33,812 nt of DNA from Desulfobacteraceae bacterium. Its GTDB lineage: Bacteria > Desulfobacterota > Desulfobacteria > Desulfobacterales > JAABSP01. The DNA lies in contig JAABTM010000022.1 in assembly GCA_011389855.1 (NCBI GenBank), forward strand, positions 1 to 33,812, written 5' to 3'. Each line of letters opens with the position of its first letter. Position 1 is the first letter of the stretch. Shown here piece by piece: positions 544-29,373 of the stretch. The notes beneath the pieces are model-generated. The model did no database searches. It worked only from the letters and a program-made list of their open reading frames with translations, and was not told the DNA's origin. Both the position numbers and the translations under genes were made by a program.

Positions 544-607
544 TATAGGTTATTCGAGACGTTCGACTCAAAAATAAGGTAAAATAACATGCCAAAAAAA
601 GGATGGG

Positions 608-781
608 TATTTGACTTTGGGGACGATGATCGCCATCGGGAAAAACTATATTTATGCCGGAATGTGTTGGATGATCGTCTTTCCCGGCGCGGCGCTGGTG
701 ATGCTGGTGGTGGCGATTAATTTGTTCGCGGACTGGTTGCGGGAGGAGTTGAATCCGAAGATTGAGCGGAAGGAGGCGTGA
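608..781 (+). pseudogene. C-terminal remnant of a DppC/OppC-like ABC transporter permease
   Basis: The frame ending at the TGA at 779-781 encodes a typical C-terminus of a dipeptide/oligopeptide-type permease: LGTMIAIGKNY, then a hydrophobic helix (MIVFPGAALVMLVVAINLF), then ADWLREELNPK. The family end usually reads GD-LRD-LDPR. Only about the last 55 residues are present, and the upstream membrane domain with most of the EAA loop is missing. The ATG at 589 is in another frame, and an internal ATG at 626 gives a product too short to work. It is therefore a decayed or truncated gene at the left edge of the AT-rich island. The family assignment rests on pattern memory of the C-terminal motif. 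Confidence 0.65.
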
Positions 782-837
782 GGGGATGTGATGGAGGGAA
801 CTACTGTGTTAGCTATTATGGGGCGACAAAAAAGGCG

Positions 838-866
838 TTGAAAATTGAGCGACGATAAGTTATCAT
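838..866 (+). promoter_or_regulatory. Sigma70-like promoter for the RNA upstream of the reverse transcriptase
   Basis: A -35 box TTGAAA (838-843) and a -10 box TATCAT (861-866) are separated by exactly 17 bases, each one or two changes from consensus. The predicted start near 872-874 lies just before the first hairpin of the structured segment. The promoter is about 190 bases upstream of the reverse-transcriptase start codon, so it would first produce the non-coding leader. Confidence 0.65.
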
Positions 867-871
867 TTAGA

Positions 872-1041
872 TTACTTCCTTATGGGAAGAACGGTCTTAC
901 CTTCTGCCGATCAGAAATGATCGGCTTTGCCATCATGCGAAGTGATGACGGAGTTGGAGTCTCAAAACTCCTTCAACCAGAAAACTTACTTTTACCTGGG
1001 TAACACCGTGGAAGAGCCTGAGTGATAACTCGGGCTCTTTT
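872..1041 (+). ncRNA. Candidate structured RNA partnered with the reverse transcriptase
   Basis: This stretch of about 170 nt carries a run of hairpins: 875-879 with 885-889; 906-913 with 918-925, a perfect 8-bp stem closed by a GAAA tetraloop; 931-935 with 943-947; 950-955 with 966-971; and the terminator stem 1013-1023 with 1028-1038. It is bounded by a good promoter and an intrinsic terminator, so a discrete RNA is expected. Position (immediately 5' of a stand-alone RT gene), size and structure resemble the RNAs of defence-associated reverse transcriptases such as DRT2 and DRT9, which act as template and scaffold. An unpaired, U-containing segment (about 981-993) before the terminator is one place a template could lie. 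It may instead be only a regulatory leader; no family model was run. Confidence 0.6.
1013..1041 (+). terminator. Intrinsic terminator between the candidate RNA and the RT gene
   Basis: An 11-bp stem (1013-1023 with 1028-1038, one T-G wobble) has a GATA loop and is followed by TTTTGTTT. It ends only 15 bases before the RT start codon, so most transcripts from the 838 promoter should stop as short RNA and RT mRNA would come from read-through. Confidence 0.85.
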
Positions 1042-1056
1042 GTTTGTGGAGGATAT

Positions 1057-2553
1057 ATGAGTTTAGAAAATAGGCTTGCTATTGCAATCAAGAAGGAAGC
1101 AGAAAAATTAATTTATAGGTACCATGAATACCACAACAATATACATGCGGAGTTTCTGAGAAACAAGAAAAGGTTAGGAGACTCTACACCACCAAAATCA
1201 ATAAAAAGACCAGACTATTGGGATATAGATAGAAAATTCAACCCTTTTTACGTTAGGCGCAAACATAAAAGTATCGCTAAATCAATAGCAAAAAAAATAA
1301 AATTACGATCATATAGACCGAATAAACCGTTCATAAAGGAAGTGCCAAAGCATGACGGCGGCAGACGAAAAGTAACCATTTATCAGATTCCAGACGCCGC
1401 TGTTTCTAAATTGTTTTTCAATCGTTTATTATCAAAGAATAAACATCGATTTAGCTCTTTTTCATATGCATACAGAAATGACAGGAATGTACATTTTGCG
1501 ATTCAAGACATTTCCGTAGATCTTAAAAATAGTGAACGTATCTTCATAGCAGAATTCGATTTCTCAGATTTTTTCGGATCGATTTCACATAATTATTTGT
1601 TTGATCAGTTTGGTAAAAATGGGTTCTTCATTAGCCCAGAAGAAAGATTTATTATTCGCGCCTTTCTTAAAGATAGAAAAGTTGGCATACCGCAAGGAAC
1701 TTCTATTAGTTTGTTTTTAGCCAATTTAACCTGTTGGAGTTTTGATCAAAAATTAGAAAAAGAAGGGGTGAAATTTTCTAGATATGCTGATGACACTATA
1801 GCATGGTCTCCAGAATATTCAAAAATTTGCAATTCATTTTTATTAATTAATGAATTTTCTAAAGAGGCTGGTATTAGAATTAACATTGCAAAATCAGACG
1901 GAATTAATTTATTGTCAAAACCCAATTTACATTCTGAAATATCATCAAAAAATTCCTTAGACTTCCTTGGCTACACTTTATCTGTTGATAAGGTATCTAT
2001 TAAAAGCAAATCCGTTACAAAAATTAAAAAACAAATTTCCTATATATTGTATCGAAACTTGATTCAACCACTTAAGCAAACTTCTCTCACGGGACAAACA
2101 ATACCTGCAAATGATAAAGATGAGAATTTTCTGTCCGCTATGATGCAGATTAGACGCTACCTATATGGTGGCTTAAGCAAGAAACAGATCAACGATTATC
2201 TATCAGGGAGAATTAATAGAATTTTCTTCAAAGGAATAATGAGTTTTTACCCATTGGTTGACGATACTGATCAATTGAAGGGGCTTGATGGTTGGCTTCT
2301 TTCAGTAATCCACCGCTCTTTACAACTGAGAGCTAAATTGTTATCGACATGGAATTTTAATCGATACCACATATTCCCTTTCAATCAAAGCCGTGACGAA
2401 TTGCTGGTGAGATGTGGAGAAGAAAAAATTTATGGCAAAAATCTTTTAGAACTACCCAGCTTTTTGCTGATACATCAAGCCCTTCAAAAAGGCTTAATTG
2501 AAAAAGGCATAGAAAAAATTATGAATCCTCGTTCACTTGGTTACTATTACTAA
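1057..2553 (+). CDS. Stand-alone reverse transcriptase, defence (DRT/UG)-like
   Basis: This 498-residue protein has the palm motifs of a reverse transcriptase: motif A with the catalytic Asp in EFDFSDFF (about D168), motif B IPQGTS (211-216), motif C YADD (243-246) and a FLGY motif (303-306). A roughly 85-residue basic N-terminal extension and a roughly 190-residue C-terminal domain flank the RT core. It lacks the maturase and HNH regions of group II introns, and I do not see the retron NAxxH and VTG signatures. It best fits the 'unknown group'/defence-associated RTs. The extreme C-terminus is three tyrosines (496-498). Start: GGAGG at 1048-1052, four bases before the ATG. The gene is strongly AT-rich and sits in a probable integron cassette behind its own promoter, RNA and terminator. 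The exact DRT class is unresolved; DRT9-like is my leading guess and DRT2-like an alternative. Confidence 0.85.
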   Translation: MSLENRLAIAIKKEAEKLIYRYHEYHNNIHAEFLRNKKRLGDSTPPKSIKRPDYWDIDRKFNPFYVRRKHKSIAKSIAKKIKLRSYRPNKPFIKEVPKHDGGRRKVTIYQIPDAAVSKLFFNRLLSKNKHRFSSFSYAYRNDRNVHFAIQDISVDLKNSERIFIAEFDFSDFFGSISHNYLFDQFGKNGFFISPEERFIIRAFLKDRKVGIPQGTSISLFLANLTCWSFDQKLEKEGVKFSRYADDTIAWSPEYSKICNSFLLINEFSKEAGIRINIAKSDGINLLSKPNLHSEISSKNSLDFLGYTLSVDKVSIKSKSVTKIKKQISYILYRNLIQPLKQTSLTGQTIPANDKDENFLSAMMQIRRYLYGGLSKKQINDYLSGRINRIFFKGIMSFYPLVDDTDQLKGLDGWLLSVIHRSLQLRAKLLSTWNFNRYHIFPFNQSRDELLVRCGEEKIYGKNLLELPSFLLIHQALQKGLIEKGIEKIMNPRSLGYYY

Positions 2554-2560
2554 TTTATAT

Positions 2561-2619
2561 AGCTAACAAGGCTAATGTGCCGACGCAAAAAGCCGCGCGG
2601 CCGATTAGCGGCGTTATAT
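2561..2619 (+). repeat. Integron attC-like recombination site (59-bp)
   Basis: Starting 8 bases after the RT stop, the segment begins with a TAAC core (AAC at 2565-2567) and ends with GTTATAT (2613-2619). Between them are imperfect inverted arms: GCTAAT (2571-2576) pairs with ATTAGC (2604-2609), and GCCG (2579-2582) pairs with CGGC (2599-2602). The A-rich centre, core spacing and total length of 59 bp match the classic 59-base element. In integrons each gene is read toward its attC, which fits the RT being the cassette gene. No integrase gene is in the window, so this would be a cassette outside or far from a complete integron. Confidence 0.7.
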
Positions 2620-2704: not shown

Positions 2705-3184
2705 ATGAAAAAGAAAGGGACTATCTGTTTAATAATGATTGCATTCACATTTCCAGCTTTTGCAGATGTGATTGGGGACGTAAACGCCGACAGCAAGGTG
2801 GGCTTAGAAGATGCTGTGTATGCTCTTCGGAGCGCGGCCGGCCTTCAATCTTTCGCAAACGCAACTGAGCCAGTAAGTTTTCATGGCTTTGTTCCAGAAG
2901 GTATTGACACTGCTGCAGATATAACAACAGTACCGGCAGGGAAAACCTTCGTCATGACGGATATTATTATTCTTCTTGATGACTCTACTTTATGTAAGAT
3001 AGATTTGTTCCAAGATGATGGGTCGAAAAGAACGACACGATTTGCACGAAATTTTAATTCAGCTGAAATTGAGTATTCTATGATGACGGGAATAACATTT
3101 TCAAGCAATACAACTGTAATTGTTGGGGGATGCAAAAGCGCTGGCGTCGAATATACAATCAGCGGCTATTACATGAACAATTAA
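2705..3184 (+). CDS. Small secreted protein with dockerin-like calcium-binding repeat
   Basis: This 159-residue protein has a clear Sec signal peptide (MKKKG, then a hydrophobic stretch ending in FPAFA, cleaved before DVIGD). Immediately after it comes a dockerin type I-like half-repeat, GDVNADSKVGLEDAVYALR, whose Asp/Asn-rich loop is typical of calcium binding. The remaining roughly 110 residues are beta-rich by appearance, with two Cys (about 97 and 143), and I recognise no named domain. A purine-rich AGGAGGGGGGAGG run just before the ATG supplies the ribosome-binding site. It lies directly after the attC-like site, so it may be the next cassette or fixed neighbouring DNA. The dockerin-like segment resembles the end of the 1639-residue surface protein at 14141-19060. 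Confidence 0.7.
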   Translation: MKKKGTICLIMIAFTFPAFADVIGDVNADSKVGLEDAVYALRSAAGLQSFANATEPVSFHGFVPEGIDTAADITTVPAGKTFVMTDIIILLDDSTLCKIDLFQDDGSKRTTRFARNFNSAEIEYSMMTGITFSSNTTVIVGGCKSAGVEYTISGYYMNN

Positions 3185-3334: not shown

Positions 3335-4249
3335 ATGGTGATAATATCGGTAATCAATTATAAAGGCGGGGTTGGAAAAACTACTGTTACTGCAAATTTA
3401 GCGGCTGAACTTGCATACCGAGGTAAGAATATATTAACCATTGATCTTGACCCTCAAGCAAGTCTAACATTTTCATTTATTACTGTTGATGATTGGCGAA
3501 AAAATTATGAAAATTCAAAAACCATTAAGAATTGGTATGATGCCTTTATTGACAAAGACACCGAGCTTAATCTAAACAGTCTAATCGCTCGACCGAGTCG
3601 GGTAAACAGCGGGAGGGGGAATCTTGATCTTATATGCTCTCATCTTGCTTTAATAAATGTCGATTTAGAACTTGCAACCAGGCTTATCGGTGGAACCGAA
3701 CGCGACCTTAGAAATAATTACCTTCGAGTGCATTCGCGTTTACGTTTTGGCTTAGAATCATTAGAAGAAGAATATGATTATATTCTTATTGATTGCCCCC
3801 CTAATTTTAACATAGTAACAAAGACTGCCGTAACAGCCAGTGATTATCTTCTAGTCCCTACGAAGCCCGACTATCTATCAACATTAGGTATAGAACAATT
3901 AGGAAAACATGTTGGGGAGTTAGTAAAATCATATAACAAATATGTCGATGACAGTGATGATTCGGAGTGGGAGAGAATTAATCCAGAAATAGTTGGAATA
4001 TTATTTACAATGATACAAATACGGAATAGATCGCCAATTTCGGCACAACAGCCTTATATTCAGCAGGTTCGCAGACTAAATATGCCAATCTTAGGAACTA
4101 TGATAAGAGAAAATAAAACAATCTATGCTGATGCACCAGAATACGGAGTTCCAGTTGTTCTCCGGCGAGTTTCCGGCCAAACCTATAAAGATGTTCAATC
4201 GGAACTTGAAAATTTGACTACTGAAATCCTTAACATGGTGACACCGTGA
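3335..4249 (+). CDS. ParA/MinD-family ATPase
   Basis: The 304-residue protein carries the deviant Walker A motif KGGVGKT (residues 10-16), with the signature Lys that marks the ParA/MinD/Soj group, a Walker A' region TIDLDPQAS (about 36-44) and a Walker B region DYILIDCPPN (about 148-157). ParA proteins form ATP-dependent dimers that bind DNA or membranes and position plasmids, chromosomes or protein complexes. There is no recognisable parB partner; the next gene overlaps by 4 bases (GTGA), so the two are translationally coupled. No N-terminal HTH is present, which argues for a Soj-like or small type Ib-like protein. A weak GGAGGAATG run before the ATG supports the start. The gene is AT-rich and part of the island; its cargo is unknown. 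Confidence 0.85.
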   Translation: MVIISVINYKGGVGKTTVTANLAAELAYRGKNILTIDLDPQASLTFSFITVDDWRKNYENSKTIKNWYDAFIDKDTELNLNSLIARPSRVNSGRGNLDLICSHLALINVDLELATRLIGGTERDLRNNYLRVHSRLRFGLESLEEEYDYILIDCPPNFNIVTKTAVTASDYLLVPTKPDYLSTLGIEQLGKHVGELVKSYNKYVDDSDDSEWERINPEIVGILFTMIQIRNRSPISAQQPYIQQVRRLNMPILGTMIRENKTIYADAPEYGVPVVLRRVSGQTYKDVQSELENLTTEILNMVTP

Positions 4250-4647
4250 AACAAAAAAATATTTTCTCGAAATTATTTCGGGTTATTGCAACTGTAATTG
4301 ATAACCTTAGCGATGACGAAATTGATAATCTTTTATCTGGTAAAGCGACCTTGATTTATCATGCGCCACCAATATCTAAAGATGGTCAAAAAGAACCCCT
4401 TAAAATTAAAAATGAAGATATCCTTAATAAGTTAAGCAAGTGCAAAGATCGGGAAGAAGCAAAGGTAATTTTATCTGAAGTTCCAAACAAAGACACATTA
4501 ACTGCAATTGCCAAATCATTAAAGGTACATGTGGTAAAGTATGACAGGCGTGAGGATATTGAAAATAAATTGATAGAGTTTGTTATTGGCGCTAAACTTA
4601 GAACCGAAGCTCTAGATTCACTAAATATGAAGGGTGGAAATGGTTAG
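4246..4647 (+). CDS. Uncharacterised partner of the ParA-like ATPase
   Basis: This 133-residue protein starts with a GTG that overlaps the ParA stop codon (GTGA), so it is almost certainly co-translated with it. It is charged and mostly helical by eye. The N-terminal part contains an acidic patch (DNLSDDEIDNLL), and the C-terminal half (about 70-125) resembles a small helical SAP/Rho-N-like fold (LTAIAKSLKV, then EDIENKLIEFVIGAKLR). That resemblance is a guess. No HTH or ParB box is visible. By position it could be a ParB-like adaptor or cargo factor. It ends shortly before a strong inverted repeat that can terminate the operon. Confidence 0.6.
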   Translation: MKQKNIFSKLFRVIATVIDNLSDDEIDNLLSGKATLIYHAPPISKDGQKEPLKIKNEDILNKLSKCKDREEAKVILSEVPNKDTLTAIAKSLKVHVVKYDRREDIENKLIEFVIGAKLRTEALDSLNMKGGNG

Positions 4648-5351: not shown

Positions 5352-5930
5352 ATGGCCGAGCCAGCAAAAAAGGAAGCTGAATACGAAGATTTATTTCACA
5401 TACCAGAAAATATGATTGGAGAAATCATAAATGGCGAACTGCATACGATGCCCAGGCCGTCACCCAAACATTCAATGGTGGTTTCGTCCCTTGGAGGCGA
5501 AATCGTCAATCCCTTCTCAAAAGGGCGCGGAGGGCCGGGCGGTTGGATCATATTATTCGAACCTGAATTGTTAATGGACAAAAACATTCTTGTCCCGGAT
5601 CTCGCTGGCTGGAAGAAAGAAAGATTGCCGAATCTTCCGGAAACCAACTGGATTGAAACATCTCCGGACTGGATATGTGAAGTTCTTTCCCCCAGTACGG
5701 TTAAGATAGATAAGACTAAAAAAATGCCGATTTATGCCAATCATAAAGTGCGGCATGTATGGTTGATCGATCCAATAGCGAAAACTTTAGATGTCTTTAA
5801 ACGGCTGAATTCCGGTGGATGGGAATTAATGGGATCGTTTGCTGAAAATGATAAGGTTGCGGCAGTGCCTTTCCATGAAATAGAAATTCACCTGGCTGAT
5901 CTTTGGGAACTTCAGGGCCATGATCCTTAA
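5352..5930 (+). CDS. Uma2-family (DUF820) putative endonuclease
   Basis: The 192-residue protein matches the Uma2/DUF820 family, a PD-(D/E)XK nuclease-fold group very abundant in cyanobacteria and environmental bacteria. Visible features are the N-terminal EIINGEL segment, the strand VPDLAGW with the expected catalytic Asp, WICEVLSPST with the expected Glu, a following KMPIYA segment that supplies a Lys, and HVWLIDP. The length is normal for the family. The start ATG at 5352 follows an AAGAGGAAAAG run. The biological role of Uma2 proteins is not established; they are often scattered among toxin-antitoxin and mobile genes, as here. It does not overlap its neighbours. Confidence 0.85.
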   Translation: MAEPAKKEAEYEDLFHIPENMIGEIINGELHTMPRPSPKHSMVVSSLGGEIVNPFSKGRGGPGGWIILFEPELLMDKNILVPDLAGWKKERLPNLPETNWIETSPDWICEVLSPSTVKIDKTKKMPIYANHKVRHVWLIDPIAKTLDVFKRLNSGGWELMGSFAENDKVAAVPFHEIEIHLADLWELQGHDP

Positions 5931-8369: not shown

Positions 8370-10481
8370 TTATTTGGTCATCAGGGGAATGTCCCCTTTC
8401 CAGTCTCCGCCCGGCGGGTTTTCACGGAAATAGTCGAGCTGCAGGATCATGAACTCCGAGGCTTTGTCCGATTTTTCCTTCCACAACGCCTCGAATCCGG
8501 CCCTGGCCGTATCGAAATCCCCGTCGTAGAACGCGGCCAGCGCTGCTTCGTATCGCTCTTTGATCTCTTTCTGATCGGGAGTCGCATCGTCGGTGAAGGC
8601 CATCAGATCGAAGACGGCCACCGGTTTTTTCTTGCCCTTTACGATGAACCGGCCCACCTCCCTGGCGAAAAACCGTTCCGCGGCGGCGGGATCGGAGCGG
8701 ATGTGGGTCAGGGTCGATTCGCTGATGAGGGTGCGCGTGCCGAACAGTTTGTTCACCCCTTCCAGCCGGGACGCCAGATTGACGCCGTCCCCCATGACGG
8801 TGTAGTTGAACCGGGTGTTGGATCCCATATTCCCCACGAATACATCGGCGGTGTTGATCCCCATCCGGACGTGAACCTCCACCCAGTTGGGGGGCGGGGC
8901 CTCATTGAGTTCATCGAGGCGCCGCTGCATCAACAATGCCGTGTTGCAGGCCCGGACCGCATGGGTATCCTGGGGTTCGGGCGCGCCGAAAAAAGCCATG
9001 ACGGCGTCGCCGATGTATTTGTCCAGGGTCCCCCGCTGCCGGAAAAGTATGCTGGTCATTTCTTCGAAGTAAATGTGGAGAAAATCGATGAGCTTTTCCG
9101 GGTCCAGCCGTTCGGAGATGGACGTGAAATTGGCCAGGTCGGAGAAAAACACGGACAGCTCGTGACGCTCGCCCCCCAGGGCGATCTCCCCTTCGCTGGA
9201 GACGAGTTTGTCCAGGAGCTGCGGGGGCAGGTACTGTTGAAAGGCGCTGCGCAGAAATCGGGAATACCGCTGCTCCGTCAGTTGGATGACCGCCTGGCAG
9301 ACCATGAACGCGATGCCGAAGGCCATCACGGGAAAGGCGATGGGGATCAGGAGGTCGCACCGGACGAAGGCGACCGTGCCCGACGCGGCCCAGCTTAGCA
9401 TGCAGACCGGCAGCATGGCGAGGGCCAGAATCGGCCGCGGGAAAAGGAACAACAGGGCGGCGAGGGTGAAGAAAGCGGTCTGAAAGAGGAATTTCTGGAC
9501 ATCGGTCGGTGCGAAGATAAACCGGTCTTCGAGCAGCATGCTCAGGGTGATGGCCTGGAGTTCCACCCCGAAGGAGGTCAGGTAGCCGTTTTTCTGGGTG
9601 GAGAAAGGGGTCAGGAACACATCCCCGAGGTCTTCGACGGCCGATCCCACAAGGACGATCTTGTCTTTGAACAGCGCTTCCGGGAGGATGGCCGCTTCGC
9701 TGGCGGCAAAGGCTTCGAAGTTGTGATCCATTCTTTCAAGCCGGGTGGGCGGACCGGGGAAATCCATGAGCATCCAGGGGTTTTCGGGGCTCAGCCGAAG
9801 GCGCTCCGGGATGTCGAAGGGGCGGCCGGTGAAGAGCCGGTAAATGGTCGCGGCAAAGGCGTGGTGTCCGCCCGGGAAGGGATAGATGCTGGTCCATCGG
9901 TGGAAATCGTCCCCCTCGGATTTGGAGATGGAGTACCCCTCGTGGGTCGTCCGGGAGAATTCGGGCAGGATGTCGGACCGGATCACCGGCGCGACGCCGT
10001 CCACGGGGATGGAGAAATTCTTCACCAGAACGACCCGGTCCCCGGCCCGGGACAGGGCCGCGGCCAGCGCCCTGTTCGCCGCCGCCAGAACCTCCTGGGA
10101 GACCACCATGTCGGCGCCGGGCGTCCCAAGAAACATCTCGCCCACGTCCTCGTAGGACCGGTCCAGGAGCACGTCGATGCCGATGACGGCGGCCCCCTTG
10201 TCGTAGAGCTGGTTGACGAGATCGGCCAGGAGAAGGCGGGGGGTGGGGGACCGATACCCGTAGGCCATGGCCGATGGGTCGTCGATGAAAACGATGACGA
10301 TGGGGGTGTCGAGGGTGTAGCGGTCCGGTCCCCGGATGAGAAACCGGTAATCGATGGAGCGGTTTTCCAGCCGCTTGAGCAGCGATTCCCCCATCTCCGC
10401 AACCTGGGGCAGCGACAGGACGATGGCGACGATCAGGGCGAAGAGAACCTTGGATAACGGGGAAAGGCGGTTTTTCAGCAA
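8370..10481 (-). CDS. CHASE2-domain class III adenylate cyclase
   Basis: The 703-residue protein begins at TTG with GGGGAG upstream. An N-terminal helix (about 12-28) leads into an extracytoplasmic CHASE2 sensor domain (about 35-320; VIVFIDDPSAMAYG near its start). Three membrane helices (about 330-400) connect to a class III cyclase domain (about 438-620). Catalytic residues are present: metal Asp448 (FFSDLANF) and Asp492 (YIGDAVMAFFG), purine-selecting Lys488 and Thr561 (a Lys/Thr pair indicates ATP, hence cAMP), and transition-state Asn568 and Arg572 (GVNLASRLEG). A short helical tail (about 630-690) follows. It is the last gene of the five-gene set, 12 bases after the FecR/DUF4384 gene. 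It probably senses an envelope or external signal and makes cAMP; the ligand is unknown. Confidence 0.9.
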   Translation of the reverse strand: MLKNRLSPLSKVLFALIVAIVLSLPQVAEMGESLLKRLENRSIDYRFLIRGPDRYTLDTPIVIVFIDDPSAMAYGYRSPTPRLLLADLVNQLYDKGAAVIGIDVLLDRSYEDVGEMFLGTPGADMVVSQEVLAAANRALAAALSRAGDRVVLVKNFSIPVDGVAPVIRSDILPEFSRTTHEGYSISKSEGDDFHRWTSIYPFPGGHHAFAATIYRLFTGRPFDIPERLRLSPENPWMLMDFPGPPTRLERMDHNFEAFAASEAAILPEALFKDKIVLVGSAVEDLGDVFLTPFSTQKNGYLTSFGVELQAITLSMLLEDRFIFAPTDVQKFLFQTAFFTLAALLFLFPRPILALAMLPVCMLSWAASGTVAFVRCDLLIPIAFPVMAFGIAFMVCQAVIQLTEQRYSRFLRSAFQQYLPPQLLDKLVSSEGEIALGGERHELSVFFSDLANFTSISERLDPEKLIDFLHIYFEEMTSILFRQRGTLDKYIGDAVMAFFGAPEPQDTHAVRACNTALLMQRRLDELNEAPPPNWVEVHVRMGINTADVFVGNMGSNTRFNYTVMGDGVNLASRLEGVNKLFGTRTLISESTLTHIRSDPAAAERFFAREVGRFIVKGKKKPVAVFDLMAFTDDATPDQKEIKERYEAALAAFYDGDFDTARAGFEALWKEKSDKASEFMILQLDYFRENPPGGDWKGDIPLMTK

Positions 10482-10493
10482 AGCCGCTCCCCG

Positions 10494-11774
10494 CTATCGG
10501 CGGGCCAGGTGGAGCACCTGAACGTCCTGGCAGATATCGGGGAGGGCCGCCGCGACCGTCTCGCGGGAGAGATCGCTTCCCCCCGCAAGCACGCCGTTGA
10601 CGCCGGCCATCACGCCTTCCACCGCCCAGGACGGCATGGGCCCCGGCGAGGCCCATCCCCAAAGGTAATGGACGCCCGAGCCGGCGGGGACTCGCAGCAC
10701 GGCCAGTACATCCCCCGACTGTTTGCCTTCGGCCGCGGTTTCGCCGGCCAGTTTGTGCTTGAGGACCCATCCGGTCAGCCCGGACGAAGCGGCGATGCGG
10801 TACCGCCGCCCCTGCTTTTCCAGAACCGTCACGGGCGTTCCCTCGTTAAGCGTTCCCACCACCTCGGCGAAGGGCGTCTCGCCGGCGCGGACGGACACCC
10901 CGTCCTCCTTGGCCGACAGGGTCTCTTCGGCCGCCACCCGGCTGGCGAAAAACGTCCGGCCGGCCAGGGCCATGAGGTCGTCGGTATCCGGAAACAACCG
11001 GGTGGAAACCGCCTTGCCGTTGGGCGTTCGGGCGGTGTGGTAGACGTAGACGTACCGTTCCCGGCCCGTTTTGTAGGCGACCTGGAGGGCTTCTCCTCCC
11101 GTGGAGAGTCGGTCTTCCCGGATGGGCGCGCCGTTGACCGCCCACGCGCCGCCGGCCCCTTGCGCCCGGAGGGCCCGGTCGGCCAGGGCCTGGATGCCGG
11201 GATCGTCGGGAAAGAAGCTTTTGAGTTTCCATAGAATGTAGACGCTCCGGTTGGGGCTGTTCTCGGCATGGAAGGCGGCGGCCAGTTCCAGGGCCGCTTC
11301 GATCTTGTTCGGCGAGAGATGGTTGAAGCGGCTGAAGGCGATCCAGTCCTGCTGAAGCGGCGTCAGGTGACTCCTGACGGCATTGATCCGGGTCCGCTGG
11401 TTGGGACTGAAAAATTCAGCCACGAACGCCGAATAGCCCGAGGCGTCGTCGCCGGCCGCGCCGGCCGATCCTTCGGAAGCCCCGGCGCCGAAGGCGAGCG
11501 CCTGTTCCTGGTTCGCGGGGATCTTGATCAGGATCCCGTCCGGGGACAGGATCCGGGCAAAGGCGTCGGGCCCGGTTTTAACCGTGGCGCCGCCGGCGAC
11601 TTTGGCCCCGCGTTTGAGACGCTGCCAGTCCGCTCCGGGCGCGGCTTTGGTCTGGACGTCTCCGGTGGCCGACAACACGGTGCCGGTCGCGGCGAATGCC
11701 GGCGGCGCCAGGGTCGTCAGGGCCAGAAACGTCAGCGCCGCGATGCCGGCGCCGATCATCAGAAAGGGTTTCAT
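10494..11774 (-). CDS. Secreted FecR / SH3 / DUF4384-like protein
   Basis: The 426-residue protein starts at MKPFLMIG with AAGGAGG 5-6 bases upstream; the frame continues to 11810 but this start gives a proper signal peptide ending near PPAFA. After it comes a FecR-like domain (about 28-90; GTVLSATGDVQ, then a Gly/Lys-rich barrel). A helical region follows (about 115-200). Next is a DUF4384-like segment (about 210-270; YKTGRERYVYVYH) and an SH3-like barrel (about 280-330; AEVVGTLNEGTPVTVLEKQG). FecR domains in such proteins lack the iron-signalling context and often sit beside CHASE2 and TPS genes. The likely location is the periplasm or outer surface. The role may be to bind cell-wall or secreted partners encoded by the same operon. 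Confidence 0.75.
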   Translation of the reverse strand: MKPFLMIGAGIAALTFLALTTLAPPAFAATGTVLSATGDVQTKAAPGADWQRLKRGAKVAGGATVKTGPDAFARILSPDGILIKIPANQEQALAFGAGASEGSAGAAGDDASGYSAFVAEFFSPNQRTRINAVRSHLTPLQQDWIAFSRFNHLSPNKIEAALELAAAFHAENSPNRSVYILWKLKSFFPDDPGIQALADRALRAQGAGGAWAVNGAPIREDRLSTGGEALQVAYKTGRERYVYVYHTARTPNGKAVSTRLFPDTDDLMALAGRTFFASRVAAEETLSAKEDGVSVRAGETPFAEVVGTLNEGTPVTVLEKQGRRYRIAASSGLTGWVLKHKLAGETAAEGKQSGDVLAVLRVPAGSGVHYLWGWASPGPMPSWAVEGVMAGVNGVLAGGSDLSRETVAAALPDICQDVQVLHLARR

Positions 11775-11819
11775 GAACGCCTCCTTGCTTTTCATGGGTC
11801 GGGTTTGCAATCCTTTTTT

Positions 11820-14135
11820 CTAAAGCCAATTGCCGATGAGCAGAAACGGCCCCCAGAACGCGGGGTGGTGGAACCGGTCGTCCCCGATCATTCGGGTCTG
11901 GGCCAGCCGCAGCGCTTCCGCCTTGGGCTTTTTTTGCTGGTAAAATTCCCGGTAAAATTCCGTCATGATCCTGAACGCGGCTTCGTCGTCCGCGAACCAG
12001 AGGGTGGCCACGGCGCTGCTCACCCCGGCCTTGACCGCGATGCCGGCCAGCCCGAAGGCGGCCCATTCGTCCCCCAGGGCGGTCTGGCAGGCGCTCAGGG
12101 TCAGCAGGTCCACCTGATTGCCCCGGCGGCGGGTCTGGTCGATGATCCTTTCCAGGCGGTCCATGGTCAGTTTTTCGTTGTGGGTCAGCAGGAAAGTCTC
12201 ATCGGCGCCGCCGCCGAACACGCCGTGGGTGGCCATGTGGACGATGTCGTAATCGGCGTCGTCGAATGCTTGGGTCAGGTTGTCCAGGGTGAAGTTTTCG
12301 TCCAGCAGAACGGTCCCCCCCATCAGATGGTGGAGCGTTGACAGCTCCTGCTTGACGCTGGGAAGCGACGCAAAACCCTGTCGGGCCTCTGACAAGCCCT
12401 CCAGGAGGACTCCGCCGCTTGCTCCGTCCGCCGGTCCGGCGGTGGTGAGGGTGATGGCCGGCACCGTGCCCACGGCGTATTTTTGAACGAGAAACCGTTC
12501 GCCGTCGTAGAGCGTCGAAAAAGGGATGAGACGCAGCACGCCGTCCGGGGCGATCACCAGCGTGTCGATGTCGCGTTGGGCCAGCGCCGGTTCCATGGGG
12601 CGGATCAGCCAGTCGTGGAGGGTCCGTCCATCCTCTTCAAATCCCTCGCCCCGGCTGTTCTGGAGGCGGCGCCGGAACCGGCGGACGGTCCGGTCCAGTT
12701 CCGTCGCCGCCACCGGGACGGTGTACAGGTCGATGGCGTCCCGGGTCATGAGCAGGATCGCCAGGTAATCGGGGAAGGGGATGGGGTAGATCACCGCCGT
12801 ATGAGGGGCCATCTCCTCCGGCTTGATGGTGGTGGTCTCCAGGGCGGAGACGCAGGGATCCTGAAAATACTCCTGGAGTTCGACGGTTTTGAGCAGCTCC
12901 ATGGCGTCCCGCCCCTCTTCGAGCAGGGCCTTTCGGGCGTCGCCGTTTTTCCGGGACGCTTTTTCCAGGAGCAGCCGCGCCAGTTCCAGGTAGACCGGAC
13001 GGATCTTTTCCTGGAAGAGATCGTGCCGGTCCCGGTAGCCGGCGACCAGTTCCTGTCGGATGGGCGTCAGGGCCTCGACGGACAGCCGGTAGGACCGGAT
13101 GGCCTCGTCCATGTCGCCTGCGTCGGCGTGGAGCCGTCCCGCCCGCCAGTGGAGAGGATAGCGGATTTCCGGGGAGATCCCTGACTGCTGGGCGTGAAAC
13201 AGGGCGGACAGGGTGAGCGTCATGGCCTCCGCATTTCGGCCTCTGAGTTCGTAAAGCCGGCCGAGATCGCTCCGGGCCAAGGCCATCAGCTCGGGGTCGT
13301 CCAGTCGCGTCGCGATGGCGTCGGCCCGTTGCAGCGCCGAAAGGGCCATCGGATCCATCTCGTCGGCCGCATCCGGCCAGATTTGACGGCCCTCCATGGC
13401 CAGCAGCCCCAGGGAGACGAGATCCCGGCCCTTTTCATGGCTGTCGGGCCGGTCTCCGATCCCGGACAGGGCCTCCCGGACGGCCTCGACGGCGGCCTGG
13501 GGGTCGCCGAGGCGAACGCTGATCCGGGCCAGGTTGATGAGGAGCCGGGACCGAAGGGCCGGGGCTTCCGCCATCCGGTCGAGGAGATAGCGGCATTCCT
13601 CCCAGGCCGCCACCGCATCGACATAGTCTTTGCGGGAAGCATGGGCGACGCCGGTGTTGATGAGCACCCCGGCGAGGGCCTCCCGGCTGCCGGCCTTGGT
13701 GGCCAGATCCTCTCCCTTTTCCAGGAAAGCCATGGCCTGATCCGGCTGCCCGATGGCGAGATAGAGATCCCCCAGCCGGGCGTGGAACCGGGCCTTCTCC
13801 ACCGGATTCCGCACCCTGTCCGCGACCCCGGCGGCGGTTTGGAGGGTCGCCAGGGCGCGGTCAAGATGTCCCAGGGCCTGCAACGCCTTGGCCTGGGATA
13901 GAAGGGCCTTGAGCGCGGCCTCCGGTGCTTTCTCTCGTTGCGCCCGGTCGGCCGCCGTTTTCCAGAAATCGACGGCTGAGGCGAACTCGCCCCGCTGGTA
14001 ATGGGCCGATCCCTTTTCCATGAGATTCGAGATGGAATCAGATGCGGTCGCCGTAGAAGGCGGCGGGAACGCGGCCAGTATGAACAGCAGGGTTCCGGTG
14101 AAAAACCGGAGAATCCGTTTAGATGCCTGTGCCAT
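11820..14135 (-). CDS. Secreted TPR-CHAT protease-like protein
   Basis: This 771-residue protein has a signal peptide (RILRFFTGTLLFILAAF, cleaved near TATAS). About ten TPR-like helical repeats follow (about 35-370), then a linker and a C-terminal CHAT domain (about 500-771). CHAT is a caspase-fold (clan CD) protease domain; its expected dyad is intact, with His637 in HMATHG and Cys683 in LSACQTALG. Bacterial CHAT proteins range from separase-like proteases to gasdermin-activating and CRISPR-linked proteases, but those are cytoplasmic, whereas the signal peptide puts this one in the periplasm or outside. It starts 5 bases after the stop of the large repeat-protein gene and has no clear Shine-Dalgarno sequence, so its translation is probably coupled. 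Substrates may be the exoproteins encoded upstream; this is inference. Confidence 0.85.
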   Translation of the reverse strand: MAQASKRILRFFTGTLLFILAAFPPPSTATASDSISNLMEKGSAHYQRGEFASAVDFWKTAADRAQREKAPEAALKALLSQAKALQALGHLDRALATLQTAAGVADRVRNPVEKARFHARLGDLYLAIGQPDQAMAFLEKGEDLATKAGSREALAGVLINTGVAHASRKDYVDAVAAWEECRYLLDRMAEAPALRSRLLINLARISVRLGDPQAAVEAVREALSGIGDRPDSHEKGRDLVSLGLLAMEGRQIWPDAADEMDPMALSALQRADAIATRLDDPELMALARSDLGRLYELRGRNAEAMTLTLSALFHAQQSGISPEIRYPLHWRAGRLHADAGDMDEAIRSYRLSVEALTPIRQELVAGYRDRHDLFQEKIRPVYLELARLLLEKASRKNGDARKALLEEGRDAMELLKTVELQEYFQDPCVSALETTTIKPEEMAPHTAVIYPIPFPDYLAILLMTRDAIDLYTVPVAATELDRTVRRFRRRLQNSRGEGFEEDGRTLHDWLIRPMEPALAQRDIDTLVIAPDGVLRLIPFSTLYDGERFLVQKYAVGTVPAITLTTAGPADGASGGVLLEGLSEARQGFASLPSVKQELSTLHHLMGGTVLLDENFTLDNLTQAFDDADYDIVHMATHGVFGGGADETFLLTHNEKLTMDRLERIIDQTRRRGNQVDLLTLSACQTALGDEWAAFGLAGIAVKAGVSSAVATLWFADDEAAFRIMTEFYREFYQQKKPKAEALRLAQTRMIGDDRFHHPAFWGPFLLIGNWL

Positions 14136-14140
14136 ATCGG

Positions 14141-17100
14141 TTACCGTATTCCCGCGGCTTTCTGGAGATGGACAATGACGTCCCTTAAATCAACCATTGA
14201 ATCTGAAACGCCTCCTTTCGCCGCCGTATATTGCGCGCCGGTTATACTACCTGTTCTAACGCCTGTCAGCACTTTAAGAGCGACAATGGCGTTACCGAGG
14301 TGGGTATTGCCGGTTGGGGCTTTAAGCGTAATCGATGTCCGGGAAATGTTTTGAGCTTCATCCCTGAACTGAACGTAGATGGTTGTATCGCCGCCGGACG
14401 CCAGCTTCCACTGTTTCGTGGCGCTGTAGTTTTCCCATTTTCCGCCCTGGCCGAAATTGACGTCGCTGATGTACATCTCCGTGGCATTGGTGGCGCCGAG
14501 GTTCAACAAAACGCTGCCCGTCGTTCGGGCCTGGCTATTGGCATCGGTTTTCACCGTTGGGTTTTTCGGAGGCTCCGTGTCGAGCCAGAAGTCAAGGGGC
14601 GCGGTGGGGCCGATGCGTCCGCGGTTGTCTTCGGCCGCCACATGAGCGAAAAATTTGACGTAATCGCCTTTCAGCGCCCGGCTGGAGACCTTTCGCTTGG
14701 TCAAGCCGGGTTTGTTGGCGTTTCGCTTGTTGATGACGTGGTTTGCGTCGTTGTTGAAAGCATAATAGTATTTCTCGTTCCCGCCGTTAAGCGTGGGATC
14801 CCACTGGATGGTGACATTCGGGCTTCGGGTGATTTTTTCCGATGTCGCCCGGGTCAATTTCTGGACGAGTGTACTTCCGGCCCGCATGTTCCGGACGACG
14901 CCCGGTCTGCGAATGGGCGAGTTCCGTTTTTTGGCGACATCGAATCTGAAACCGATGAGCGGGGCATCGGTGGCGTGGGTGGTCGCCGCATCGGGTATGA
15001 CGCCTGACACGGTTTCATTGACGCCATTTCCAGTCGCGTCCCGCCATTGGTCGTATATTTCGTTAAAATCGTCGCCGATTACGTGGGCCGTGAACCTCAG
15101 GAAATAATCGGTCGAGGGAGACAGCTCGGTAAAGGAGAAGCTTCCGTCATCGGATGTTTGCGTCCATGCCCAGTCATTTGGATTGTTGGCGTTAATGGCA
15201 TTCACAATGACATAGGTGTTTGCGAGGGCCGGGTCGCTGATATTTTCGACTGTCCCGGAAAGCGTGTTGCCCGCCCCGCGCGCCAGCAGGATGTTGACTT
15301 GTTGGTTGGCCTTCTTGTCCGCGGGAGTGGTTTTTGTCGGATATCCGTCGGCCCTGGCGGCAACCTGGTAGTTGGCGATTTCCTGTCCGGCGTTGTCCGT
15401 TGCGGGAATGCCGCTGATGGCGTATCCGCCGTCCGGTCCCGTGCTGGTGGCCCAGAACAGGGTTTCCCCCGTGTTGCTTACGCGTGTGATTTCCACCGCG
15501 GCCCCGGCCACTGCTTGGCCCTGCGCCGTCACCAAACCGGAGATAACGCCGCCGTCGGCGAGTTGGAAGTCAACGTCGGCGGTCGGAAAAGCGGTCGGCG
15601 CTTCCGTTGCTTCAAGATATCCCTCCAGGATCACGGTGATGAGGTAATCGCCTAACCCATTGGGAACCTGTGGAATTTCATAATGGCCGTTCCGGTCGGT
15701 GGTGTCGTAATTCCAGAAAAAAGACGTTTCGGAATAGACGAATACCCATGCGCCGGCGGCTGAAGCGCCGTCCGGCAACGACACGGTCCCCCGGATCGCG
15801 CCGCCCTGACCCAATTCGATATCAATGTTGCGGCTAATCGATATGTCCCTGGGTTTGGTTTCTGTATAGACGGAATAGTTGGAATCCAGCGGCGGCCACA
15901 CTGTCAATTCGTAGTCGCTTGCGGGAATGATCCGATTGATGCTGTAGGCGCCATCGCTGCTCGTTTCGGCCCATGCATAACCGCCCATATCGCCAATTGA
16001 TTCGGACCAGACCTCGACCACCGCGCCCGCTACCGCCACCTCTGGATCGTTGGCGTCCGTCACTTTACCAGAAACCGTGAGGGTCCCGCTATTTTTGCTC
16101 AAGATCAGTTCCATCGGGTTGCAGTCGGTGGAGCACGTTTTCACATTATTTTTAAATCCCGGAAGATAGTCGGATCCCCAGTCGGGCCACACGCTGACTT
16201 CATAATCCAATCCTTCGGGAAGTCCGGAAATGGTAAATTCTCCATTAATGTTCGTATAGCTTTCGTTGCCGGCCAGTTGTTTGTCGGACCATGCGCTGAC
16301 CCAGACGCCGGAGATCGGTTTGCCGGAAGCGTTGAGCACCTTGCCGATGATTCGTTTCCCGGCCTGGATGGCGATGTCGATCCCTTCCGGAGGGTCGTCA
16401 AGGGTGCTGACAGGGGCGGCGACCGTGTAGTCCCGGACGGTTTTTCCGCCGGCGCCATAATAGAAAAATCCCAGTTCACCGCCGTCGGCTTCGACGATGA
16501 AATCGTTCGCGGCGTAAAGACCGGGGATGGTGTAGGTCCCGTCATTGCTGGAATAGGTCTCTCCCCAAGAAAAAGTGCTTTCCGACCAGGCGGATACAAA
16601 AACGCCGCCCACGCCGGCGTTGGATGCGCCGTCAATGATCTTCCCGGAGATCGTCGTTCCCCGGGATAAGGTGAAATTGACATCGTTCCTGTTGGTCGCC
16701 ACCGGTACGGCCGTTTCATAATCGCTGCTGTTGTCGTAATACAGCGGCATGGACGTTTCCGGCCATATGCTGACAATGTAGTCGTTCCCTGAAACCAGCC
16801 CCCCGATGGTGTAAGGGATATCGCAAGGGGCGTCGGCGCAGTCCTGGGGCGTTACTTCGATTTCCACTCCGGACCCGTATCCGGTGGAAAGAGATTCGGC
16901 GTTCACCCAGATGATCTCCGCTGTTTCCACCGTCGCCGCCAGGGTGATGACGCCGCTGATGCCGGCAAGTCCCGCCGTGTCTACCAGTTGGAAATCGATT
17001 CCCCCCTTGGAACCGGCGGTGATGTCCACCGGTGTACTCTCCGACCAGTCATATCCGAGTGGGTAAACCTGATAAAGATGAAAATCGGGGTAGATTTCCA

Positions 17101-19060
17101 CGATGTAATCCGACGCCGCAGGCAGGTCGGCGATGGTGTATTGGACTGGCGATCCCGCGCCCACGATCAGAACGTCCCCATAATAATCGTTCGAGGGGGA
17201 CCAGGCGCTGATGACGGCCGTTTCGTCCGCAGACAGGTTGGAAACCGTTCCGGAAATGCTGTTGCCCTGAAAATTCGCCAGCTCGAAGTTCGCGACCCCG
17301 CTGGCCGATGCGGTCACGGTTGCCGGTTGACTTGGCAGGGGCATGCCTTCGTAGGTATAGACAGAGACCTCGTAGGTTCCTGGAATGACGCCTTCGATGG
17401 CGTAGTTTCGATCATTTTCAAGCGTTCCAAGGGTCTCCGCGCCGAACCAGGCGCCTGTATCAGGATCCCACGCTTCCACCCACGCCCCCGGATAAGCGGC
17501 GCCGTTGAGGGTCACCTTTCCATATATGGCGGCGGCGCCGACCGATATGTCGATGTTTCGCATTTCCGTGCTGGATGGATTGACCGGGGTGGCGTTTTCC
17601 CCGGAAAGCACGCTCGCGGCGGCGCCGTAGTAGGCCCCCGCGCCAATGTCCGGCCAGGCGGAAACGATGTATTGCTGATTCGGATCAAGGCCGAAGATTT
17701 GATAATTCCCTTCCGCGTCCGTGACTGTGTCGCTGACGAATTCATAGTCAGGGGTCCATGCCTCGACCCATAGTCCGGTATCTGGAACGGCCCCGCCGAC
17801 GGTGACGGCGCCCTTTATCACGCCCTCTAAAGCCGATGGGTCGAGGTCGAGATAAACGTCGAGGGAGACGGCGCCTTCCGTTAGATCAACAGGGTCCGCC
17901 ATTTCCTCGCTCATTTTTCTGTCGTAATAAATGGGTGGAAGATCCGGGCTGTAGACGGCCACAATATAGTCGCCGGCCGGCGGCAAATCCGAAAAGGCAA
18001 ACTCACCCATGGGGTCGGTTATCTGGTAATCGTAATAGAATGTGGCGTCGGACCAGATCTCCACCTCGACGCCGCTGAGTTCGTGCCAAACCCTGAGTGA
18101 TGATTCGGGCGGGTCGTCCGTTGTCCAAACCGTTCCGGTGAGCGAAACCCCGACAACATCGGTCGTCAGATTGAAATTCACGTTGTCGGCGCCGGTGACC
18201 ACCGGGTCCGGATAAATCTGATATGGATAATTCACAGGGTAAACTTCCACGGTGTAGCCTTCAATTGGGTCGGACGTTTCCGCTAGGCCGATAATGGTGT
18301 AACACCCTGTTTCATCGGTGATCGCATCGGATTCCGAGCCCAATAATTCGGACCAGGCGTACACCCATGTGTCCGGCGCGGGATCGCCAAGTTCGTCCCG
18401 CACGCACCCGGAAATGGTTCCACCCGAGGAAATGTTGAAAACAACATCGGAACGGCCCGTGACGACCAGTTCCGGGTATTGGAAGGATGTATTGTGGGCG
18501 TATGCTTCCACAATATAACCGGAAGCTGGGTCCGCGGTTTCCACCAGTCTGGTGAACTGATAAAAGCCTGATGCATCGGTATAAACAAAAGACCCCGCGT
18601 CGAGGGCCTCGGACCATGCGTACATTTCCGCATCCGGGATGGGAGCGCCGCCGGAGTCGTAGACATATCCGGAAATCGTTCCGCTCGGGACGGTGAAATT
18701 TACGTCGAATCGACCCGTTACAACGGATTCTGGGTAATAATAATAATAATTTTGGGAGATAGTGTCGTCCCAAAACTCGAGCATCACGGTATATCCCGAG
18801 GCCGGGTCGGTGGTTCCCGCGAGCCCGGTGATTTGATAAAAGCCTGATGCATTGGAAATAGCGGAAGATTCCGTGCCGAGAGCGTCGGACCATGCGTACA
18901 CCGACGCATCCGGGAGGGGAGCGCCGTCAGGGCCGTACACGTATCCGGATATACTGTCTATTTGCCCGAATGCAACGCTCGCCATAGTTAGCGTAAAGCA
19001 GAATAACACCAGGCCGACCCAGTTCAATTTCATTCCCCTTTTAATGCTGATCGCTTCCAT
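14141..19060 (-). CDS. Giant secreted protein with about 14 carboxypeptidase-regulatory-like repeats and dockerin-like end
   Basis: The 1639-residue protein starts at 19060 with a GAGGGGGGG run before the ATG; an internal ATG (19033) has poorer spacing. A signal peptide ends near SVAFGQ. From about residue 35 to 1380 a module of about 90-100 residues recurs about 14 times. Each opens with ISG-V or a variant and contains an (A/V)WS-type strand and a G-Y-I-GL segment, as in carboxypeptidase regulatory-like (Ig-like prealbumin) domains. Examples start ISGYVYGPDG, IKGAVTVGG, ISGKIIDGAS and ISGLVTAQG. A fibronectin/Ig-like part follows (about 1400-1560), then two dockerin-like half-repeats (NAIVALKVLTG and MVDLRDVIVHLQKAAG) at the C-terminus. 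It is very likely an outer-surface structural or adhesive fibre. It lies 33 bases after the TPS exoprotein gene. Confidence 0.85.
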   Translation of the reverse strand: MEAISIKRGMKLNWVGLVLFCFTLTMASVAFGQIDSISGYVYGPDGAPLPDASVYAWSDALGTESSAISNASGFYQITGLAGTTDPASGYTVMLEFWDDTISQNYYYYYPESVVTGRFDVNFTVPSGTISGYVYDSGGAPIPDAEMYAWSEALDAGSFVYTDASGFYQFTRLVETADPASGYIVEAYAHNTSFQYPELVVTGRSDVVFNISSGGTISGCVRDELGDPAPDTWVYAWSELLGSESDAITDETGCYTIIGLAETSDPIEGYTVEVYPVNYPYQIYPDPVVTGADNVNFNLTTDVVGVSLTGTVWTTDDPPESSLRVWHELSGVEVEIWSDATFYYDYQITDPMGEFAFSDLPPAGDYIVAVYSPDLPPIYYDRKMSEEMADPVDLTEGAVSLDVYLDLDPSALEGVIKGAVTVGGAVPDTGLWVEAWTPDYEFVSDTVTDAEGNYQIFGLDPNQQYIVSAWPDIGAGAYYGAAASVLSGENATPVNPSSTEMRNIDISVGAAAIYGKVTLNGAAYPGAWVEAWDPDTGAWFGAETLGTLENDRNYAIEGVIPGTYEVSVYTYEGMPLPSQPATVTASASGVANFELANFQGNSISGTVSNLSADETAVISAWSPSNDYYGDVLIVGAGSPVQYTIADLPAASDYIVEIYPDFHLYQVYPLGYDWSESTPVDITAGSKGGIDFQLVDTAGLAGISGVITLAATVETAEIIWVNAESLSTGYGSGVEIEVTPQDCADAPCDIPYTIGGLVSGNDYIVSIWPETSMPLYYDNSSDYETAVPVATNRNDVNFTLSRGTTISGKIIDGASNAGVGGVFVSAWSESTFSWGETYSSNDGTYTIPGLYAANDFIVEADGGELGFFYYGAGGKTVRDYTVAAPVSTLDDPPEGIDIAIQAGKRIIGKVLNASGKPISGVWVSAWSDKQLAGNESYTNINGEFTISGLPEGLDYEVSVWPDWGSDYLPGFKNNVKTCSTDCNPMELILSKNSGTLTVSGKVTDANDPEVAVAGAVVEVWSESIGDMGGYAWAETSSDGAYSINRIIPASDYELTVWPPLDSNYSVYTETKPRDISISRNIDIELGQGGAIRGTVSLPDGASAAGAWVFVYSETSFFWNYDTTDRNGHYEIPQVPNGLGDYLITVILEGYLEATEAPTAFPTADVDFQLADGGVISGLVTAQGQAVAGAAVEITRVSNTGETLFWATSTGPDGGYAISGIPATDNAGQEIANYQVAARADGYPTKTTPADKKANQQVNILLARGAGNTLSGTVENISDPALANTYVIVNAINANNPNDWAWTQTSDDGSFSFTELSPSTDYFLRFTAHVIGDDFNEIYDQWRDATGNGVNETVSGVIPDAATTHATDAPLIGFRFDVAKKRNSPIRRPGVVRNMRAGSTLVQKLTRATSEKITRSPNVTIQWDPTLNGGNEKYYYAFNNDANHVINKRNANKPGLTKRKVSSRALKGDYVKFFAHVAAEDNRGRIGPTAPLDFWLDTEPPKNPTVKTDANSQARTTGSVLLNLGATNATEMYISDVNFGQGGKWENYSATKQWKLASGGDTTIYVQFRDEAQNISRTSITLKAPTGNTHLGNAIVALKVLTGVRTGSITGAQYTAAKGGVSDSMVDLRDVIVHLQKAAGIR

Positions 19061-19093
19061 ATGCCCCCCCCTCTTACTTAAAGATATTCGTTG

Positions 19094-25756: not shown

Positions 25757-26468
25757 TCACTTCAGCCAGGCGTTCACCTGATCTTCGTGGAACCGCATAT
25801 AGCGGAGGGCTTTTTCGCCGGGAAACATGCCGTCGTCATCCTTGATCCAGATCATCAACTGTTCCAGTTCTTCCGTATTCCATTTGAATGCGTCAAGGAA
25901 CTTGTACACGTCGGGCATGTCCTCCTTCAGCCCTTCCCGGACGATGGTGTGGATCTTTTCCTCGCCGCCGTAGACGTTTTTGGGATCGTCGAGGAATTTG
26001 AGCTTCCACCGGGCGAACATCCAGTGGGGCTCCCATCCGGTGACCACGATCCATTTCTGCTTCCGGATGGCGTTGGACAGCTCGGCGGTCATGGAGACCT
26101 CGCTGCCCTTCACCAGCTCGTAATTGTACAGGCCGTATTCCCGGAGGGCTTCTCGGGTTTTTTCCATGATGCCGGCCTCGGGGTCGATGCCGATGATCCG
26201 GCGATGGAATTTGTCGGCGTACTTTTTTAAATCGCCGATGGACTCGGCCTTGATGTAAGACGCGTTGCGCTGCCCGGAAGCGGCGGTCTGCCGCCCCACG
26301 GTGATGTCCGGCACCACCAGGCCGATCTGGGTTCCGGTGAGGTTGGGGCCCAAATCCACGATCCGGTCTTTGTATTCTTCGTAGAAATGGCCGTGGGTGG
26401 TGGGCAGCCAGGCCGCCACCATGCCGTCCACCACGCCGGCGGCCACCGACGCCCACATCTTGTCCGCC
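25757..26468 (-). pseudogene. 5'-truncated copy of glycine-betaine-binding protein (OpuAC-like)
   Basis: The segment matches the C-terminal 236 codons or so of the intact gene at 28388-29308 without a gap (712 bases from the stop codon to the breakpoint), with about 13 amino-acid differences. It lacks the signal peptide and roughly the first 70 residues. Homology stops abruptly at 26468, where a 177-bp piece of the 126-aa gene begins. An ATG at 26458 gives an open frame of 233 residues, but the protein would be cytoplasmic and half of the first lobe of the binding cleft would be missing. It is best read as a pseudogene, with the frame still open because decay is recent. Confidence 0.85.
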
Positions 26469-28387: not shown

Positions 28388-29308
28388 TTACTTCAGCCAG
28401 GCGTTCACCTGCTCTTCATGGAACCGCATATAGCGGAGGGCTTTTTCGCCGGGATACATGCCGTCGTCTTCATCTATCCAGATCATCAACTGTTCCAGTT
28501 CTTCGGTGTTCCACTTGAACGCGTCAAGGAACTTGTACACGTCGGGCATGTCCTCCTTCAGCCCTTCCCGGACGATGGTGTGGATTTTTTCCTCGCCGCC
28601 AAAGACGTTTTTGGGATCATCGAGGAATTTGAGCTTCCACCGGGCGAACATCCAGTGGGGCTCCCATCCGGTGACCACGATCCATTTCTGCTTCCGGATG
28701 GCGTTGGACAGCTCGGCGGTCATGGAGATCTCGCTGCCCTTCACCAGTTCGTAATTGTACAGGCCGTATTCCCGCAGGGCCTGTCGGGTCTTTTCCATGA
28801 TGCCGGCCTCGGGGTCGATGCCGATGATCCGGCGATGGAACTTATCGGCGTATTTTTTCAGATCCGCGATGGACTCGGCCTTGATATAAGACTCGTTGCG
28901 CTGCCCGGAAGAGGCGGTCTGCCGCCCCACGGTGATGTCCGGCACTACCAGGCCGATCTGGGTCCCGGTGAGGTTTGGGCCCAGATCCTCGACCCGGTCT
29001 TTATAATCTTCGTAGAAATGCCCGTGGGTGGTGGGCAGCCAGGCCGCCACCATGCCGTCCACCACGCCGGCGGCCACCGAGGCCCACATCTTGTCCGCCG
29101 TCATGGGGATGATCTCGCACTCCATGCCGAGTTTTTCCTGGATTACCGTTTTGACCATATTGGTGGCCGCCACGGTCTCGGACCATTCCACATAAGAAAG
29201 GCGGACTTTCTTGGGGGCCGCCTCGGCAGGGGTTGAAAAGAGGGTGAACGCCAGCGCCAATGCGCAGAACAGAACCGTCGCGACGGTGGGGATCATTTTT
29301 TTTGTCAT
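28388..29308 (-). CDS. Glycine betaine/proline-type ABC substrate-binding protein (OpuAC-like)
   Basis: The 306-residue protein starts at MTKKMIPT; AGGAGG lies 5 bases upstream of this ATG (a second ATG directly before it is too close). A Sec signal peptide ends at TPAEA. The mature part follows the OpuAC/ProX type II binding-protein plan: VRLSYVEWSETVAATNMVK at the start, MWASVAAGVVDGMVAAWLP, GIDPEAGIM, and VVTGWEPHWMFARW, which supplies Trp residues of a betaine aromatic cage. It is periplasmic. No ATPase or permease genes (opuAA/AB) are adjacent; instead it follows a BCCT transporter gene, separated by a terminator hairpin. A truncated copy of the gene lies at 25757-26468. Confidence 0.85.
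   Translation of the reverse strand: MTKKMIPTVATVLFCALALAFTLFSTPAEAAPKKVRLSYVEWSETVAATNMVKTVIQEKLGMECEIIPMTADKMWASVAAGVVDGMVAAWLPTTHGHFYEDYKDRVEDLGPNLTGTQIGLVVPDITVGRQTASSGQRNESYIKAESIADLKKYADKFHRRIIGIDPEAGIMEKTRQALREYGLYNYELVKGSEISMTAELSNAIRKQKWIVVTGWEPHWMFARWKLKFLDDPKNVFGGEEKIHTIVREGLKEDMPDVYKFLDAFKWNTEELEQLMIWIDEDDGMYPGEKALRYMRFHEEQVNAWLK
28391..29099 (-). repeat. Large direct repeat shared with 25760-26468
   Basis: This 709-bp part of the intact opuAC gene matches the truncated copy without gaps. Similarity begins at the stop-proximal end (CTTCAGCCAGGCGTTCACC) and ends at TGTCCGCC (29092-29099). The flanks differ on both sides. The copies differ by scattered, mostly conservative changes, so the duplication is older than the 177-bp repeat. 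Confidence 0.9.
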
Positions 29309-29341
29309 CATTGCCTCCTTATCTTTAAAATGCTGAAAAAT

Positions 29342-29373
29342 AAAAAGCTTCCCGCCGCGACGACGCGGCGGGA
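29342..29373 (-). terminator. Intrinsic terminator downstream of the BCCT gene
   Basis: On the minus strand a perfect 10-bp stem (29364-29373 with 29350-29359, 4-base loop) is followed by AGC and then TTTTTATTTTT. It lies 30 bases after the BCCT stop codon and about 40 bases before the opuAC start, so it would limit or attenuate read-through between the two. Confidence 0.85.

Follow-up and report, generated by a model that had tools for sequence, protein, structure and literature searches.

A DRT9-type reverse transcriptase and its upstream RNA in a Desulfobacteraceae genome

In DRT9 systems, an RNA scaffolds a hexamer of the reverse transcriptase (RT), a tract of four uridines (U4) in this RNA lies near the active site, and C-terminal tyrosines of the RT prime synthesis; long poly-dA builds up during phage infection, and the infected cell dies (PMC12483538, PMC12489045). 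In SenDRT9, the system of Salmonella enterica (EAO1508900.1), it is the U4 at nucleotides 123–126 that templates the poly-dA (PMC12483538), and deletion of one U inactivates the system. Phage defence by abortive infection is known for SenDRT9 and for PsaDRT9, the latter tested in defence and represented in the literature by poly-dT/poly-dA reads. In E. coli, ExoI restrains DRT9, and introducing SenDRT9 was not possible in its absence.

Here we describe a locus from a Desulfobacteraceae bacterium, lying in a window (the whole stretch of DNA analysed) of 33,812 nucleotides, contig JAABTM010000022.1 of assembly GCA_011389855.1. The locus is almost certainly an intact copy of the already described DRT9 anti-phage system, an ordinary new example, from a bacterium of the sulfate-reducer type, and no new kind. 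Its identity, anatomy, conservation and covariation were established on this copy itself, and the features are collected in Table 1.

Table 1. Features of the DRT9 locus, in window positions.
Feature	Positions	Strand	Remarks
Unit common to a same-order genome of another family (L049/L005)	812–2565	+	89.5% identical, flanks unrelated
Sigma-70-type promoter, TTGAAA-17-TATCAT	838–866	+	Putative, from promoter scan; placement kept across DRT9 loci
DRT9 ncRNA, about 168 nt	874–1041	+	5' end by homology with the E. coli/Salmonella RNA; 3' end at terminator
5' stem-loop SL1	874–889	+	
Long-range closing helix, 5' strand ACGGT	891–895	+	Pairs with ACCGT at 1005–1009; invariant in nine-sequence alignment
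8-bp stem with GAAA loop	906–925	+	Two-sided changes at 7 of 8 pairs
Stem-loop CATCA(T)/TGATG	931–947	+	
Stem-loop GGAGT/ACTCC	956–971	+	
U4 template tract inside ACTTACTTTTAC	990–993	+	Homologous to U123–126 of SenDRT9; function per PMC12483538
Closing helix, 3' strand ACCGT	1005–1009	+	
3' terminal stem-loop (SL6 of the ncRNA) and intrinsic terminator	1013–1041	+	
DRT9 (UG28) reverse transcriptase, 498 aa	1057–2553	+	YADD at 243–246; C-terminal ...SLGYYY (Y496, Y498)

The reverse transcriptase

The stand-alone RT predicted by an earlier, sequence-only reading of this DNA is encoded by an intact open reading frame. The PADLOC Drt9 profile matches it over residues 4–496 of 498 with 721 bits, the runner-up DRT class being UG17 with 85 bits, and the best PDB match is likewise the DRT9 RT (chain 9ioa, plus five other entries; E 4e-242, residues 1–498). 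Full-length identity to the E. coli/Salmonella DRT9 RT, the protein of these structures, is 71%; an RT matching chain 9ioa occurs in E. coli NZ_CP039298 (L009). The YADD active site and both C-terminal priming tyrosines, Y496 and Y498, are present and are invariant across five aligned RTs, namely the window copy and those of E. coli, a viral contig, a same-order genome and a Hymenobacter plasmid. In the RT tree, the window copy pairs with the same-order copy (100/100) within a nine-row clade (99/97) that includes the E. coli copy and Photobacterium sanctipauli, a position inside the DRT9 family. The host genome holds one DRT9 RT and one DRT9 RNA. When records of mobile elements were searched by tBLASTn for the DRT9 RT, the phage records gave no match and plasmids gave two distant relatives.

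The RT also matches the NCBIfam group II RT model (125.9 bits) and retron models weakly, as might a remnant of a group II intron or retron RT, but these scores fall far under the curated cut-offs of 300 and 235 bits. In the PDB search the DRT9 RT leads RTs of these two kinds by a wide margin, the full-length match is to Drt9 only, and the window contains no Rfam RNA at gathering score. We consider the probability of such a remnant negligible: the RT does not belong to a group II intron clade, and the earlier statement that it has no intron or retron signature holds. All scores with the NCBIfam group II RT, retron, Drt2 and Drt3a models were well under their cut-offs; for Drt2 the score was 71 bits against a cut-off of 390 (75 bits with the PADLOC profile), which places the RT outside the Drt2 family. 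On these profile scores the group II, retron, DRT2 and new-subtype readings were rejected.

The upstream RNA and its promoter

The segment directly upstream of the RT gene, at about 874–1041, is identified by homology as the known DRT9 ncRNA. A covariance model (R2) made from the RNAs of E. coli, the viral contig, Alteromonas, Photobacterium, Pseudoalteromonas and Sulfurimonas, all from other genera and with no close kin of the window among them, has its sole match in the window at 870–1041 (114.8 bits, E 1.3e-30). A further model (R1), built from nine close sequences, finds the RNA directly upstream of the RT in all DRT9 loci searched except L042, including loci of Bacillota, Bacteroidota and Campylobacterota. 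The consensus fold of the nine sequences has 50 pairs, 24 of them with two-sided changes, and 93.6% of its cells are paired, compared with 84.9% in column shuffles and 35–49% when the partners are slid; in the model-fitted R1 alignment, two-sided changes occur at 49 of the 50 pairs. The sequence-only reading had staked its case on conservation and covariation of this segment among RT homologues, and both are found. Alignment to the E. coli DRT9 locus gives the common blocks AACGG...ACCGTGG, TCAACC and AACTTACTTTTAC...GGGT. The Rfam search of the window at gathering score returned no RNA, and the DRT9 RNA is therefore not recognised by Rfam here.

The U4 of SenDRT9 aligns with UUUU at 990–993, in a loop ahead of the closing helix, and U4 is kept in 39 of 40 plus-strand RNA matches. 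A Luteimonas DRT9 RNA (L030:2308-2446) has UUUA in place of the tract (ACTTACTTTAACTAGG).

The decisive matches of both RT and RNA to DRT9, and the place of the RT inside the DRT9 tree, settle the class as DRT9. What had been observed, a defence RT of the DRT2/DRT9 kind with its own upstream structured RNA, is confirmed; the accompanying suggestion that the class was open, and could be a new subtype, is not. In such a subtype the product templated by the upstream RNA would not be poly-dA but, for instance, a repeated gene as in DRT2 or a tandem repeat as in DRT10; the literature on these two systems does show that the template varies among class 2 UG RTs that have an upstream RNA. We find this scarcely credible here, as the template loop ACTTACTTTTAC is identical to that of the E. 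coli/Salmonella DRT9 and the Drt2 scores are as low as given above.

The RNA of about 170 nt with several hairpins that had been predicted stands, with its extent refined to about 168 nt; both ends are placed by homology only. Its segment is strongly folded (minimum free energy −69.2 kcal/mol versus −41.5 ± 3.5 in shuffles, z −7.9), and the 8-bp stem with a GAAA loop lies exactly where it had been reported. The predicted 11-bp intrinsic terminator is also present (AGAGCCTGAGT-GATA-ACTCGGGCTCT at 1013–1038, then TTTGTTTG), and this hairpin belongs to the RNA itself, as the 3' stem-loop that the literature calls SL6. An automated terminator scan does not list it, probably because extension of the stem swallows the T run. 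An abundant short RNA and little RT mRNA would plausibly fit the layout, judging from the terminator. This terminator ends 15 nt ahead of the RT start codon, and the layout would be alike if the segment were a mere leader or attenuator of the RT mRNA with no separate functional RNA. The most conserved parts of the RNA, however, are the closing helix and the template loop, which a leader does not need, and in the homologue the RT binds the RNA and defence against T5 requires all stem-loops except SL3; we accordingly give the leader reading very little credence.

The promoter proposed in the sequence-only reading is present. Promoter scanning alone gave a chance-level result (9 sites in the region versus 10.4 expected in shuffles), so that the site is not significant by itself, but its −10 element stops 7–8 nt short of the RNA 5' end set by homology. 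Of 37 DRT9 loci, most have their top-scoring −35/−10 pair ending 5–9 nt ahead of the RNA start. The mean score of this pair over the 37 loci is 8.9, compared with 7.5 in shuffles, and both hexamers are kept in the same-order genome of another family (L005). The position relative to the RNA start is conserved across DRT9 loci.

Extent of the unit and its surroundings

Comparison of the first 6 kb of the window with the same-order genome of another family confines the similarity to 812–2565, from which we take the transferred unit to be promoter, RNA and RT, with no partner gene. A SLATT partner gene is only occasional in the DRT9 family and does not define it. Here, the nearest downstream open reading frame has no Pfam match and the common unit holds the RNA and RT only; we do not count this against DRT9 membership, because most DRT9 systems lack the partner too. 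Just upstream of the promoter, window positions 600–781 resemble the coding sequence for the C-terminus of a dipeptide-type ABC permease (...NLFADWLREELNPKIERKEA), possibly a remnant at the insertion point.

The DRT9 RT of a same-order genome (L006), matching that of a Desulfobacula MAG (L016), is divergent beyond about residue 405 and so has no priming C-terminus; upstream of it is a tmRNA-like sequence. The E. coli DRT9 copy also adjoins ssrA, with an integrase in between. The DRT9 RNA of same-order genome G090 has a score identical to that of the Desulfobacula MAG RNA and appears to be the same.

Elsewhere in the window, a ParA-type ATPase gene is followed by an overlapping 133-aa open reading frame with no family match (3335–4647), and a Uma2-family putative nuclease (5352–5930) matches the PADLOC candidate PDC-S03. 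On the minus strand lie a cluster of a TPS-secretion-domain protein, a 1639-aa carboxypeptidase-regulatory-repeat protein, a TPR-CHAT protein and a CHASE2-cyclase (8370–21985); two very similar glycine-betaine-binding (OpuAC) genes around a lactate-permease-family gene (25757–26458, which appears 5'-truncated, and 28388–29482); and two adjoining paralogous genes for small regulators, each combining an HTH-like part with a MazE-like C-terminal part (30992–31324 and 31420–31926). By eye, dockerin-like segments (GDVNADSKVGLEDAVYALRSAAG; MVDLRDVIVHLQKAAGIR) occur in two secreted-type proteins, the one encoded at 2705–3184 and, at its end, the one encoded at 14141–19060.

Mode of action, silencing and comparison with known systems

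We are highly confident that the locus is a complete two-component DRT9 anti-phage system. The promoter would make the structured RNA of about 168 nt, ending at its own 3' hairpin and terminator, and the RT mRNA would be supplied by read-through or by a second start. The RT would bind the RNA, which would scaffold an oligomer (a hexamer in SenDRT9), and in the active complex uridines 990–993 would sit at the YADD site and be copied repeatedly into poly-dA, primed by Y496 and/or Y498 and staying covalently bound to the RT. Upon phage infection poly-dA would accumulate and the infected cell would die, protecting the population. Because none of the mechanism-relevant features recognisable at sequence level is missing, we infer RNA binding, hexamer, poly-dA, tyrosine priming and abortive infection with high confidence from the homologues (PMC12483538, PMC12489045).

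DRT9 may be silenced differently in this host than in E. coli, where the arrangement has been worked out. With one family model, the ExoI C-terminal domain (PF08411) was not found in the host genome, a draft that is 95% complete, in which ExoVII and RecJ are present. The same domain was not found in 10 of 28 DRT9-bearing genomes, the host included (G000, the host; G294, G296, G301, G307, G308, G309, G311, G314 and G315), and Bacillota and Bacteroidota are among them, which suggests that the silencer differs between hosts. We tentatively propose, as an idea with rather less than even support, that DRT9 in hosts without ExoI is silenced by a different nuclease or control, the tug-of-war between ExoI and phage being one version only. 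How DRT9 is silenced in such hosts is a question that this locus makes testable. Since ExoI was needed to introduce SenDRT9 into E. coli, the present host, without detectable ExoI, might instead harbor a genuine DRT9 locus that is now non-functional. That is very unlikely, as the RT reading frame is intact with all key residues, the RNA stems, template and promoter are intact, and the copy in the other family of the order, 93% identical, has the same features.

Among described systems, DRT2 (UG2) likewise has a class 2 UG RT with an upstream RNA as scaffold and template, but the window RT scores only 75 bits with Drt2, and its RNA has a U4 loop in place of a long gene-encoding template. SenDRT9 has an RT 71% identical to the window copy over its full length and shares with it YADD, Y496 and Y498, the same ncRNA architecture, an identical template loop and the order promoter, RNA, terminator, RT. 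It differs in its host, the window host having no detectable ExoI, in its RT C-terminus, which is NYDYE rather than the GYYY of the window RT, and in one stem-loop region, which is shorter and of different sequence in the window RNA, so that U4 lies at nucleotides 117–120 there and at 123–126 in SenDRT9. The DRT9 of Photobacterium sanctipauli (L013), which from its species we take to be the PsaDRT9 of the literature, has a 76% identical RT and an RNA of the same family, in a host of a different phylum. To these the present locus adds a clean DRT9 copy from the Desulfobacterales, and its comparison with a second family of the order shows a transferable unit of exactly promoter, ncRNA and RT.
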